A stretch of DNA of 20,278 bases from a virus. The notes below the pieces were generated by a model. That model worked only from the letters and a program-made list of their open reading frames with translations. It made no database searches and was not told where the DNA came from. Where the stretch lies: the IMG/VR virus record IMGVR_UViG_3300027631_000175, positions 1 through 20,278 of that record, one strand, 5' to 3'. The stretch's first letter is position 1. The number at the start of each line of letters is the position of its first letter. This document shows positions 9,932-13,586 of the stretch, piece by piece. The translations under genes and the position numbers were made by a program.

Positions 9932-10165
9932 TTAAAAAGGTAAGTCGTCTATATCTATTTTGCTAATTGGTTCGCTTGTTACTGGCGGTACGTAAGGCTC
10001 GCTAAATGAAGCCGACATGAACGACCCGTTTTTACCTTGTTTAACCCATAACGCAATTTCCATTTCTTTGCCGTTTACGTTTACTTTCCCTCGATAGTCT
10101 GGGTGTGTGTCCTTAGTCTTTTTGTCGTTCTTAAAGATTGCACCCGAATTTAACTTGTTTTCCAT
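9932..10165 (-). CDS. DUF736-like protein with SSB-type acidic tail
   Basis: A 77-residue protein. Residues 5-55 (NSGAIFKNDKKTKDTHPDYR then GKVNVNGKEMEIALWVKQGK and GSFMSASFSEP) match the pattern of the DUF736 family of small plasmid/phage proteins. A proline-rich linker follows (EPYVPPVTSEP), and the protein ends KIDIDDLPF. That end closely resembles the acidic tip (DDDIPF) by which single-stranded-DNA-binding proteins recruit replication and repair partners. I infer a small ssDNA-binding or replication-linked protein. There is no full-length SSB in the window, so this protein could fill that role. Location in the early/middle region agrees. Confidence 0.65.
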   Translation of the reverse strand: MENKLNSGAIFKNDKKTKDTHPDYRGKVNVNGKEMEIALWVKQGKNGSFMSASFSEPYVPPVTSEPISKIDIDDLPF

Positions 10166-10188: not shown

Positions 10189-10302
10189 TTAAAATGTGCC
10201 TTTGAATATCTGTGATACTATTGCAGTTCCTACTATTGCTATCATTCCTAAAACTAGGAACATTACAATTATTGCTAGTGTTTTTTCTTTAATTCTTATC
10301 AT
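10189..10302 (-). CDS. Very small membrane protein (37 aa)
   Basis: A 37-residue frame, MIRIKEKTLAIIVMFLVLGM then IAIVGTAIVSQIFKGTF, with a single strong membrane helix at about residues 8-30 and a basic N-terminus (positive inside). Its ATG overlaps the stop of a six-codon mini-frame (10302-10322) in a TAATG junction, and that mini-frame begins at one copy of the shared 17-base start sequence. Typical of small single-pass phage membrane proteins; function unknown. Confidence 0.5.
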   Translation of the reverse strand: MIRIKEKTLAIIVMFLVLGMIAIVGTAIVSQIFKGTF

Positions 10303-10322
10303 TATTGGTTTGGTTTTTTCAT
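10302..10322 (-). other. Six-codon mini-frame MKKPNQ
   Basis: Starts in a shared 17-base start sequence and stops in a TAATG junction with the 37-residue membrane protein. Like the frame at 11490-11516, it could be a cassette remnant or a coupling leader. Confidence 0.3.
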
Positions 10323-10456
10323 TGTTCTTGTTGTTTAGGTTTAGGTAATATTCCGTCTTTAATTAACTTGTTCCACTCTATTCTTTCTTGGTGCTTTCCT
10401 AAGTAGTAGGAAATAAATGCTACCAAAACAAATGATGTTATAATTAATGCTGTCAT
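10319..10456 (-). CDS. Very small membrane-anchored protein (45 aa)
   Basis: A 45-residue frame starting MTALIITSFVLVAFISYYLG, a single N-terminal membrane helix or uncleaved anchor, followed by a charged tail HQERIEWNKLIKDG and an end KPKQQEQ. Its ATG sits at a copy of the 17-base start-associated sequence and its own last codons (KQQEQ plus stop) are the next copy. The repeated junctions argue that it is a true gene despite its size. Function unknown. Confidence 0.55.
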   Translation of the reverse strand: MTALIITSFVLVAFISYYLGKHQERIEWNKLIKDGILPKPKQQEQ

Positions 10457-10468
10457 TGTTCTTGTTGG

Positions 10469-10660
10469 TTAAAGGTTAGTTGGGTTTTCATCGTCATTTT
10501 CGGGTTTAATAGATTCAAGAAATACCCATACAAAAAAATAAATTAGCGCTACACCCATAGCGAAAAAGGTAGTCCATCCTACCATTGGTATTAACACCAT
10601 TAATACCAAATAAATACATATTAAAAAGGTAATAATAGATGTTATTAAATGTGTTCTCAT
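10469..10660 (-). CDS. Small two-helix membrane protein
   Basis: A 63-residue protein starting MRTHLITSIITFLICIYLVL. Two membrane helices are clear, at about 5-29 and 32-52 (FFAMGVALIYFFVWVFLESI), and the C-terminus is acidic (KPENDDENPTNL). The start is marked by a one-mismatch copy of the shared 17-base sequence. Size and two-helix topology fit a holin, but phage genomes have many such proteins, the gene is not beside a lytic enzyme, and no endolysin is in the window, so I leave the function open. Confidence 0.6.
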   Translation of the reverse strand: MRTHLITSIITFLICIYLVLMVLIPMVGWTTFFAMGVALIYFFVWVFLESIKPENDDENPTNL

Positions 10661-10679
10661 TGTTATTGTTGTTTAAAGG

Positions 10680-10925
10680 TTAATAACAACCAAACATTTT
10701 AAAATATTCAGATTCAGCAATCCATTCATTTGTTATTTTATTTCTATAACCATCATAGATACTTGAATTTGTTTCTGAAATCCAATTTTTTTTAGCGTTT
10801 GTGTCTTCTAATGTCGGCTCTAATGTCTGCTCTAATTCATTAATATATCTTAAAACGCTAATTGGTGTTGTCATATAATCTTCTTCGGCATTTTGCTTGA
10901 AGTAATCTAAGTCTTTTTCTTTCAT
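10680..10925 (-). CDS. Small phage protein of unknown function
   Basis: An 81-residue soluble protein starting MKEKDLDYFKQNAEEDYMTT, followed by PISVLRYINELEQ, a combination I associate with small flavobacterial phage proteins of no known function. The middle is acidic (EQTLEPTLEDTN) and the C-terminal half is rich in Asn, Tyr and Trp. It has no motif pointing to an activity. The ATG lies in a shared 17-base start sequence and forms an ATGA junction with the upstream stop. It belongs to the CG-poor small-gene cassette region. Confidence 0.65.
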   Translation of the reverse strand: MKEKDLDYFKQNAEEDYMTTPISVLRYINELEQTLEPTLEDTNAKKNWISETNSSIYDGYRNKITNEWIAESEYFKMFGCY

Positions 10926-11131
10926 TGTTCTTGTTGTTTAGTTAGTTCGTGTTTTACTTGTTCCCAATATTCAATACTTTGTGGGGCTGTGCAATCAAAT
11001 GTTTTTATTATTTCATCAACTGCAATAAGAGAGGCTTGTTTTGCGTTTTTTATTCTGCTCTTTCTACTGCTGTACCATAAACATTCGTAATACATTTGAT
11101 ATAAATCTTTTGCTCTTTCTACTGCTGTCAT
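10922..11131 (-). CDS. Small helical phage protein of unknown function
   Basis: A 69-residue, mostly helical protein starting MTAVERAKDLYQMYYECLWY. The pattern of AK(D/E)L at the start, A..A.IAVDEII in the middle (ASLIAVDEIIKTF) and YWEQVKHEL near the end is one I know from many short phage proteins without known function. It ends KQQEQ, encoded by the shared 17-base sequence that also holds the next gene's start, so stop and start are joined as ATGA. Its own start sits in another copy. Confidence 0.68.
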   Translation of the reverse strand: MTAVERAKDLYQMYYECLWYSSRKSRIKNAKQASLIAVDEIIKTFDCTAPQSIEYWEQVKHELTKQQEQ

Positions 11132-11493
11132 TGTTCTTGTTGTTTAATTGTTAGTTCTTCTCCAGTGAGTGCGAAGTAAAGGTTTTGAAGTTGGTGAACG
11201 TATTGAATGTTAATATTTTTCTCAATACCAAGTATATTCCATTTATTACTTTTATCTATCGGAGGATTTAGGTAAATTGAAAAACGTGGATTTTTCATAT
11301 CATACAAAACTGAAGACAATACATCTCTTTTACTAAATCCAAACTTCAACAACCATTCTTCGGTTAGTGGGATAGGTTTTACTTGATTATGTGGTTCTTT
11401 TACAATATAAGTAATTGCTTCTAAATCTATTCTATTTACTTTACCTAAAGTGTCATAAAAATAATTGCCTATTCGTAATTCACTTGCTTTCAT
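11128..11493 (-). CDS. Conserved 'LRIGNY/YVHQLQNLYFALTGEEL' phage protein
   Basis: A 121-residue protein starting MKASELRIGNYFYDTLGKV. It matches a small family common in Bacteroidetes phages and prophages: an N-terminal LRIGNY segment, a central PIPLTEEWLLKFGF (about 40-53), and a C-terminal YVHQLQNLYFALTGEEL (about 98-114). Function is unknown. Conserved hydrophobic and aromatic positions suggest a compact fold, possibly an SH3-like N-terminal barrel plus helices, which is inference. It ends in KQQEQ through the shared 17-base element and begins at another copy. I am confident that it is a gene. Confidence 0.75.
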   Translation of the reverse strand: MKASELRIGNYFYDTLGKVNRIDLEAITYIVKEPHNQVKPIPLTEEWLLKFGFSKRDVLSSVLYDMKNPRFSIYLNPPIDKSNKWNILGIEKNINIQYVHQLQNLYFALTGEELTIKQQEQ

Positions 11494-11516
11494 TGTTCTT
11501 GTTGTTTAGTTATCAT
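11490..11516 (-). other. Eight-codon mini-frame MITKQQEQ
   Basis: A short frame, ATG 11516 to TGA 11490, whose last five codons are the shared 17-base start sequence of the 121-residue gene, joined as ATGA. It looks like the tail of a lost cassette gene, or a leader that feeds ribosomes to the next start. It is too short to call as a protein. Confidence 0.35.
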
Positions 11517-11548
11517 TTCTATTTACGATATGTGGTAAAAATTGCCAC

Positions 11549-11998: not shown

Positions 11999-12374
11999 TT
12001 TTTAGTTTTTTAATTTGATATATAGCTTCATCTGCTGATATTTTAAACCATTCGTTATTTTCTGTTCCATAAGTTTCAAAAAAATATCTTTCAATTAAAA
12101 TTGGATTATCTACTCTTGTACAAAAAATAGCTTCATAATCTCTTAATGGAGATGATACATTATAATTTTTAAGTCTTTTTGCAACATCTATTGCTCTACC
12201 TATTTTCACCCAACCATTCCAAGCGGGATTTATTATAACATATATCCATCCTTTATAAGGCATAGACTTGTATCTATCTCTGTAATATTTTTTATGTTTT
12301 TCTCTTACACATTGTAAGCAATAACTATGTCTTTCAACAGCAGTTTCTTCTTTACATAAAATACATTGTTTCAT
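11970..12374 (-). CDS. GIY-YIG/T5orf172-type endonuclease-like protein with zinc ribbon
   Basis: A 134-residue protein starting MKQCILCKEETAVERHSYC. An earlier in-frame ATG exists at 12410, but ATG 12374 forms an ATGA junction with the upstream stop and starts right before the zinc motif, so I prefer it. Cysteines C4, C7, C19 and C22 form a small zinc-ribbon. The second part, GWIYVIINPAWNGWVKIGRA (about 42-61), DVAKRLKNYN and IERYFFETYG (about 94-103), is the T5orf172/MUG113 form of the GIY-YIG fold. Such proteins often are free-standing mobile or homing nucleases. The gene is strikingly poor in CG pairs (two in 12001-12370) compared with the upstream YqaJ gene, a sign of separate origin. Confidence 0.78.
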   Translation of the reverse strand: MKQCILCKEETAVERHSYCLQCVREKHKKYYRDRYKSMPYKGWIYVIINPAWNGWVKIGRAIDVAKRLKNYNVSSPLRDYEAIFCTRVDNPILIERYFFETYGTENNEWFKISADEAIYQIKKLKNEYESENRG

Positions 12375-13051
12375 AAGAAATTGATTAAGGTGTTGTAATA
12401 CTCTCGGCAAAGCTCTACCTGTTCTTTGATTGCTTCTATTACTTGTTCGTCTTTTTCTACTTTGAATACTTTTACACGTCGGTTATCTGGTATGTGGTCA
12501 AAGTTATGGCGTTTCTGTACTTCGTCGCGTAGGTCTAGACTTTCTTCTAGTAGGTTAGCGTTCCAGTGTGCGCGTCTTACTTCGTCTTCTACCATGTCTG
12601 CGGGTGTGTTTACCAAACAATAGCACAATAACGATTCGGTTTTGCCCGTAAGTTCCATGTAGCCTTGCAACTGGTAGTAATAATCCTTTGTAGGTATTTC
12701 CGTAGCAAAAAACGGAAAGGTAGTAGCGTCCCAAGAACTTTTAACGTCTAATAAAATAGCGTCCGTGTTTACGTCGGGTGTACCAGTCATGAAGTCATTA
12801 CTAAAATGCTCTTCGTTTTTCCATATAAAGCCTAAATCTAGAATGTCAGATACTAAATTGATAGCTTCGTCTTCTACTAGGATACCTTTGTCCGTGTAAC
12901 GGCTGTAAAATTGCTTTTTAATTCCGTACTTGTTTTGGATAACTTGTTCTTCTATGTATGTCTTTGCGGTTTGGCTTAACAATTCCCCCTTAGTTCGGGG
13001 GTTTGTCATTATCTTACCTATTGCTGAACATCTAATTTTAAAAGCATTCAT
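12371..13051 (-). CDS. YqaJ/lambda-exonuclease-like recombination nuclease
   Basis: A 226-residue nuclease of the PD-(D/E)XK class. The order of motifs is that of YqaJ/lambda Red exonuclease: IRCSAIGKIMTNP at the start (about 6-18), GILVEDEAI with E60, MTGTPDVN (D93), ILLDVKSSW with D102 and K104 as the metal-binding and catalytic pair, and YYYQLQGYM (Q127, Q129). Family knowledge: it degrades one strand of DNA ends to leave single strands for the partner annealing protein. That partner, ERF, is encoded immediately upstream and the genes share ATGA. Its end shares ATGA with the GIY-YIG gene. Confidence 0.87.
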   Translation of the reverse strand: MNAFKIRCSAIGKIMTNPRTKGELLSQTAKTYIEEQVIQNKYGIKKQFYSRYTDKGILVEDEAINLVSDILDLGFIWKNEEHFSNDFMTGTPDVNTDAILLDVKSSWDATTFPFFATEIPTKDYYYQLQGYMELTGKTESLLCYCLVNTPADMVEDEVRRAHWNANLLEESLDLRDEVQKRHNFDHIPDNRRVKVFKVEKDEQVIEAIKEQVELCREYYNTLINFL

Positions 13052-13557
13052 AACGCGTTAATTAAATCGGTTTGACCTTCTGTTAAAGTGAACTTTGCTT
13101 CTAGTTCGGCACGTGTATAGTTACCAGCGTTAATAGCTTCTACGGCTTTTTGAAAACGTTTAGCGTCAATCGTAGGTAATTTAGTTACTTGTTCACCACT
13201 TGCGTCCGTGTCTTTGTCGGTTACTAGTCCTAACATAGAACTGATAGCGTAACGACGTACGTAAGTAATAGCAGACCCCATAACTTGAAAGTCATTCATT
13301 CCTTTTAAAGCTACGTTTTGTGGTATTGCCGTAGTGCTTTCGATTGTTTCGCCACTTTCCACATGAAATAAACACGTAACTAAATTAGTGTCGTTAATCA
13401 ACTGAGTGAATCCTAGTCCGTGTTTTTTTAGTAATGGATTAATAACGCTAAAAATTTTCGGTAAGTCCGAATAGGAATATCCGTAGCCTTGCGTCGCCTT
13501 GTGAATTACTGGTACTTCTTGTTGGAATGTTGCCAACGCTTTAAATAAATTTTTCAT
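13048..13557 (-). CDS. erf: ERF-family single-strand annealing protein
   Basis: A 169-residue protein starting MKNLFKALATFQQEVPVIHK. The ERF family motif GSAITYVRRYAISSMLGL, followed by acidic DKDTDASG, lies at about 94-121; FTQLINDT and IPQNVALKGMNDFQVMGSAI are also typical. The frame extends to a TTG at 13581, but that codon falls in a TAnnTTTG -7 element, so I chose ATG 13557. Family knowledge: ERF anneals complementary single strands during phage recombination and circularisation. It works with the exonuclease coded directly downstream (ATGA junction). The C-terminal 40 residues look like a small helical tail and are less conserved. Confidence 0.88.
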   Translation of the reverse strand: MKNLFKALATFQQEVPVIHKATQGYGYSYSDLPKIFSVINPLLKKHGLGFTQLINDTNLVTCLFHVESGETIESTTAIPQNVALKGMNDFQVMGSAITYVRRYAISSMLGLVTDKDTDASGEQVTKLPTIDAKRFQKAVEAINAGNYTRAELEAKFTLTEGQTDLINAL

Positions 13558-13578
13558 GTTAAATAAGTTTTGTTTAGA

Positions 13579-13586
13579 CAAAGATA
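13579..13586 (-). promoter_or_regulatory. Candidate -7 element before erf
   Basis: The minus strand reads TATCTTTG, an exact TAnnTTTG match, 21 bases before ATG 13557 and only a few bases after the NinG stop. No good -33 element is visible at the expected distance. It would let the ERF/YqaJ pair be expressed apart from the upstream operon. Confidence 0.4.

Follow-up and report, generated by a model that had tools for sequence, protein, structure and literature searches.

A 19-nt joint that probably links stop codon, start codon and recombination site in small-gene arrays of phages likely to infect Bacteroidota

The window analysed here is a virus record in its own right, with 20,278 bases. 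On its minus strand, a series of small genes is bordered by copies of nearly the same short sequence, which raises the question of what keeps this sequence constant between genes for unrelated proteins. The preliminary description had placed a 17-base repeat before six consecutive starts, with at most one mismatch, and proposed that it could recruit ribosomes and serve as a homology hook for swapping gene cassettes. We consider it probable that the element is a translation start/stop adaptor that doubles as a short-homology recombination site.

The minus strand carries all six copies, of which four are exact and two differ by a single base, and there is no seventh site in the window with three or fewer mismatches to the 17-mer core (AAACAACAAGAACAATG). 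Dinucleotide shuffles of the window gave 0.26 matches on average and never more than 2, versus the six real copies. Of 208 distinct exact copies elsewhere (among the matches listed), 92% have a T immediately before the 17-mer and 97% have an A immediately behind the ATG. Therefore, the repeat was confirmed but its length was revised to 19 nt, TAAACAACAAGAACAATGA, and this unit is hereafter designated the joint. The array and its surroundings contain the following features.

13048–13581, minus strand: Erf-family single-strand annealing protein, candidate recombinase (PF04404, 3.2e-27)
12371–13051, minus strand: recombination exonuclease (phrog_5715, 5.7e-59)
11509–11548, minus strand: leader of the array, containing GTGGCAATTTTTACCAC and conserved in other phages ahead of their first joint
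11490–11508, minus strand: joint 1, exact TAAACAACAAGAACAATGA
11128–11493, minus strand: cassette gene 1, 121 aa, C-terminus KQQEQ-stop, phrog_10066 (unknown function)
11128–11146, minus strand: joint 2, an exact copy at the left boundary of the cassette absent from contig L104
10941–11146, minus strand: 206-bp cassette (joint 2 with the 69-aa gene) that L104, otherwise identical, lacks
10922–11131, minus strand: cassette gene 2, 69 aa, C-terminus KQQEQ-stop, phrog_21441 (unknown function)
10922–10940, minus strand: joint 3, an exact copy at the right boundary of the cassette absent from L104
10680–10925, minus strand: cassette gene 3, 81 aa, no family match, TAA stop 19 nt before the next ATG
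10657–10675, minus strand: joint 4, TAAACAACAATAACAATGA, one mismatch, with TTAACCTT just before it
10469–10660, minus strand: cassette gene 4, 63 aa, hydrophobic, its stop being the TAA of joint 5
10453–10471, minus strand: joint 5, TAACCAACAAGAACAATGA, one mismatch
10319–10456, minus strand: cassette gene 5, 45 aa, hydrophobic N-terminus, C-terminus KQQEQ-stop, phrog_36655
10319–10337, minus strand: joint 6, exact, its ATG opening an ORF of no more than 6 codons, which run on into the start of the next gene
10189–10302, minus strand: 37-aa membrane-like gene after the array, family 28, which in some relatives starts directly at a joint
9932–10165, minus strand: single-strand DNA-binding (SSB) protein-like gene downstream of the array (phrog_18154, 1.7e-14)

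Read as mRNA, the joint carries a TAA in frame with its ATG and a TGA that overlaps the ATG in the next frame. In the TGA frame it encodes KQQEQ-stop, and a frequent box upstream of the joint, TAACCTT, supplies a stop in the third frame. Among the matches listed, 115 of the 257 contexts before this joint use the TGA as their stop and 45 use the TAA. The window uses all three positions: the TGA for the 121-, 69- and 45-aa genes, the TAA 12 nt before the ATG for the 63-aa gene, and the TAA 19 nt before the ATG for the 81-aa gene. The preceding gene ends within the joint or immediately ahead of it, and the next begins at the joint's ATG; the element thus closes one gene and opens the next. As had been described, several copies (11129, 10923 and 10320) double as a KQQEQ-stop coding end, and the window's five proteins share nothing but their ends. 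The claim of six gene starts stands for the five copies that lead plausible genes, but not for the sixth, whose ATG opens the 6-codon ORF only.

The joint is widespread in viral DNA. We found at least 223 exact copies in at least 120 IMG/VR stretches, often two to five per locus, and about nine-tenths of the copies with a readable end open a frame of at least 30 codons (among the matches listed). These totals from viral scans are lower bounds, further joint types could be missed, and all relatives compared are metagenomic contigs of uncultivated viruses. Copies lie at gene borders in many relatives and in unrelated phages. In relatives chosen by their terminase (TerL) and not by the motif, 38 copies are exact, and 7, 2 and 4 copies have one, two and three mismatches, respectively. 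Among the matches listed, cultured phages have no full-length joint; the matches in Flavobacterium BAL314 span only the ATG end of the joint and the start of a KTAVEWL-like gene. The host of the window phage is likely a member of Bacteroidota, because the distant matches of its terminase include many phages of Bacteroides and Flavobacterium. In cellular genomes (one genome for each of 84,980 species), the 19-mer occurs at 12 places, once per locus, and these scattered matches rule out a host consensus as its source. Two codon-permuted 17-mers of the same composition and a similar A pattern were found in 28 and 12 stretches, nearly all as single copies, and together with the shuffles they rule out chance in A-rich DNA.

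In relatives that lack the first joint, a second joint, TAAATCAGAATAAG-ATG, occupies the same hotspot. It was found in at least 120 viral stretches and, among the matches listed, lies with the first joint on one stretch in about ten loci. It follows a similar plan with one TAA 11 nt and another 1 nt before the ATG; the 1-nt stop is used in 120 and the 11-nt stop in 31 of 215 contexts (among the matches listed). Of the 49 multi-member cassette families, 24 were found behind both joint types (among the matches listed), so that the joint is a property of the junction and not of the gene. Two further candidates, AACAAGCCAAAGAA-ATG and TAAACGGCAAAGAA-ATG, were ruled out as joints, being internal coding stretches (QAKEM and the SSB-like gene). 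Separately, AAAATAATATAGTT-ATG or AATACAATATAGGT-ATG precedes genes dispersed along the genomes of relatives, with three to four copies per locus (L181, L183, L186, L194, L196 and L228; L243, L253 and L256); these elements may be a late promoter or a start element.

Translation initiation in F. johnsoniae is promoted by A at −3, −6, −12 and −13 (PMC6847099). Both joint types have A at all of these positions and no Shine-Dalgarno sequence, and three internal joints tested as RNA were unstructured (0 kcal/mol). A ribosome-recruiting leader would thus be consistent with the published Flavobacterium data, and we infer that joints may enhance translation. If the joint were a start signal only, the initiation preferences of the host would have driven many genes to one leader, with recombination being incidental. 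The A pattern agrees with this explanation, as does the finding that one-mismatch copies vary mostly at the non-A positions −2, −5, −8, −11 and −15 and hardly at −3, −6, −12 and −13; moreover, five Bacteroidota genome matches of the 19-mer are located at gene starts. However, the non-A positions are also fixed, in more than 170 distinct contexts, the permuted versions are far rarer, cellular genomes scarcely use the 19-mer, and two dissimilar joints serve the identical job. A start signal by itself therefore appears unlikely to account for the joint.

Many arrays are headed by additional conserved elements. A leader before the first joint, AAGGATAAGGGGTAAAAATTGCCACATATCTAAACACGAAATGTAAAC, is conserved in L012, L023, L061, L106 and about 50 other loci, and that of the window (11509–11548, minus strand) is the form with its core reversed, GTGGCAATTTTTACCAC; it may serve the array as a promoter or operator. 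A candidate structured RNA of approximately 100 nt that separates the leader from the first joint (L197:2491–2593, L207:6113–6215, L018:2739–2841, L015:5666–5768 and seven more) ends in a terminator-like stem and a T-run, with compensatory changes in 8 of 19 predicted pairs and no match in Rfam. A second conserved RNA-like segment of 70 nt, AAGGGATAGGCGCAACAACTCC...GACGAGC-T run, occurs at the same place in L205:6026–6098, L198:6199–6271, L006:6945–7017 and others, and also upstream of a tRNA in L290; it has no Rfam match, and no covariation has been seen so far.

The joint might instead be the binding site of an RNA or protein regulator of early genes, encoded by phage or host, with recombination as a by-product. 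Its near-invariance exceeds the needs of translation, and the conserved leader and candidate structured RNAs at the head of many arrays would suit such regulation. On the other hand, the internal joints tested are without structure, no candidate regulator was identified, and both joint types are found in one hotspot and, in some cases, within a single genome. We regard this explanation as rather improbable.

Conserved protein ends were considered as a further source of the repeat, through tandem duplication of one family with the C-terminus NETFKQQEQ or NETFKSE and the N-terminus MKTAVEWL. Proteins with ends of this kind do occur in one family of 89 members, and the boxes upstream of joints often encode ETFK. 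However, the 429 cassette proteins behind either joint fall into approximately 175 families, 126 of them singletons (among the matches listed), preceding genes end in different joint frames (TGA at −4, TAA at 12 or 19), and the window's five proteins are unrelated. The 175 families largely refute duplication of a single family as the full explanation and indicate that the sequence is maintained as DNA or RNA, not through one conserved protein; we find it improbable that protein ends account for the joint, although they may be its origin. Some small proteins vary at the N-terminus but have in common a C-terminal part, EQAKEMEKEQI...EQYYNETFK-SE or -QQEQ, that ends in the joint (L022, L242, L273, L309 and others). 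They likely belong to the largest cassette family, with 89 members, which is a possible origin of the joint. As for cassette functions, PADLOC found no convincing defence genes, with one weak CARF match, among 75 proteins (half of the representatives scanned).

Among relatives, a conserved frame (Erf, exonuclease, variable genes and SSB-like gene) holds zero to six joint-headed genes in differing order. When the 206 bp from joint to joint (10941–11146) are removed, the window is exactly identical to L104 over the whole 7,077 bp of the latter, and the two sites have precisely the 19-mer in common as a repeat. Because common assemblers use words longer than 19 bases, a simple assembly collapse at L104 is unlikely. 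Further joint-to-joint length differences with homology on both sides were found (e.g. L111/L082 and L037/L092). In addition, single cassettes of 128–336 bp that are bounded by joints and 96–100% identical recur in different phages whose flanking sequences are unrelated, among them the 173-kb contig behind L013 and the 30-kb phage L187. The joint state requires 12 changes on the TerL tree of 46 rows and differs even among identical TerL proteins.

Alignment breakpoints concentrate at the motif. Of the BLAST breakpoints in arrays, 13.6% and 14.9% lie within 5 bp of a joint edge versus 2.2% expected (6- to 7-fold). At non-joint gene starts, 0.62 left and 0.24 right alignment ends were counted per start within 2 kb, versus 1.02 and 0.77 at joints. 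Gene starts in these phages are generally breakpoints, and joints are hotter (1.6- to 3-fold) but not unique. Cassettes are gained, lost and shared exactly at joints, and the clean difference from L104 and the cassettes common to phages with unrelated flanks bear out the earlier proposal of a homology hook. Neither outcome that the preliminary description had named as refuting, a lack of the motif at gene borders of relatives or tandem duplication of a single gene, was observed. As a separate observation, gene-sized length differences elsewhere in these phages are likewise flanked by repeats of 10–44 bp, often with a start codon (e.g. L205/L106, L209/L202 and L190/L195); start-site repeats in general may be exchange points.

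In the window, the Erf and exonuclease genes are directly upstream of the array region and the SSB-like gene is downstream. In other loci, exonuclease (28) and Erf (21) are the commonest upstream neighbours among 88 proteins sampled, and Erf is present in all 11 records of the window's phage family. The Erf/Exo pair of phage D3 equals lambda Red in recombination and far outperforms RecA on diverged sequences (PMC3945230), and RecET can act on 5–13 bp at low frequency (PMC2327257). Given this gene context and the behaviour of these systems, annealing at joints, which we infer to be carried out by Erf, would be the most economical account in this phage family. Five larger joint-bearing phages are without a recognisable Erf and must use some other recombination agent. 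Integron-like site-specific recombination through a dedicated integrase would fit the ordered small-gene arrays with a leader and the precise cassette loss, but it is highly improbable, as the 16 joint-bearing records, which may be incomplete, contain no tyrosine or serine recombinase (PF00589, PF00239) and the internal joints tested show no fold.

In our proposed mechanism, the 19-mer would be a gene-junction adaptor of tailed phages probably infecting Bacteroidota. In the mRNA, it would close the preceding frame through the TAA, or through the TGA overlapping the ATG, and provide an A-rich, unstructured, non-Shine-Dalgarno start to the next gene. In the DNA, its copies would act as direct repeats of 19 bp, and short-homology recombination at them would delete, insert or swap whole cassettes, each made up of joint and ORF; in the window's phage family, this would likely be done by the Erf annealing protein, exonuclease and SSB-like protein that the phage itself encodes on either side of the array. 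With stop and start both in the joint, a recombinant would leave both neighbouring genes intact and translatable, and this would allow a common pool of small accessory genes to circulate among unrelated phages. Exchangeability itself may be under selection, although a 19-bp repeat need not have been selected for exchange just because deletions occur between its copies.

Taken further, the system may be a phage counterpart of the integron, in which unrelated Bacteroidota phages share one small-gene pool through at least two universal joints (stop, start and recombination site), with exchangeability selected and the phage annealing machinery as the engine; this wider reading is put forward tentatively. 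It touches the old open question of whether mosaicism arises from recombination targeted to conserved boundaries or from random illegitimate events (PMC3233612, PMC2327257). The joint is a nearly invariant boundary sequence with hundreds of copies and a natural single-cassette change in otherwise identical DNA, and the question thereby becomes testable with reads and simple reporters. The two short strings also provide a search handle for accessory genes, mostly of unknown function, in a large group of uncultivated phages, and the joint is a candidate start element for expression in Bacteroidota.

In the open-access literature searched, we found no description of this element, and it was compared with four known systems. 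Like the lambdoid boundary sequences (Susskind and Botstein 1978; Clark et al. 2001, cited in PMC3233612 and PMC2327257), at which modules are exchanged by homologous recombination, the joint is a short conserved sequence at gene junctions where modules are exchanged, probably by the same route, and module breakpoints fall at it with the 1.6- to 3-fold excess over non-joint starts. In contrast to those sequences, a single 19-mer repeats through tandem arrays, includes start and stop codons, and is common to phages of about 30 to 170 kb.

The start-associated sequences (SAS) of cluster K phages, in the available portion of PMC3203893, are repeated asymmetric sequences that adjoin starts of unrelated non-structural genes, mostly in one orientation, sometimes with the upstream stop inside, and are nearly absent from the host. 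The joint shares all of this, and its likeness to SAS in logic, noted in the preliminary description, is upheld; membership is not, since in that portion the SAS consensus is GGGATAGGAGCCC with a Shine-Dalgarno core, whereas the joint has another sequence without such a core and abuts and includes the ATG. Cassette exchange is not reported for SAS in the same portion, unlike for the joint.

The PeSLs of T4-type phages (Arbiol 2010; Comeau 2014, cited in PMC4503421) are repeated intergenic elements tied, like the joint, to gene shuffling between related phages. They are described there as promoter-terminator composites, with a stem-loop and an early promoter in each intergenic copy, whereas the joint yielded neither a promoter nor a terminator, and its three internal copies tested as RNA showed no structure; in a scan for the sigma-70 type only, sigma-70-like sites at joints did not exceed shuffles.

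With integron gene cassettes, the joints share arrays of small ORFs, each ORF having its own recombination site, and the gain or loss of ORF and site as a precise unit. In contrast to integrons, no tyrosine integrase was found in the 16 joint-bearing records (possibly incomplete), the internal joints tested have no attC-like structure, and the start codon is itself part of the site. Because the tested defining features of SAS, PeSLs and integrons are lacking, the joint is not classed with them. It would work like lambdoid boundaries by function, SAS by position, PeSLs by genome habit and integrons by array logic, and it is best called a boundary sequence of a new form that would unite site, stop and start.
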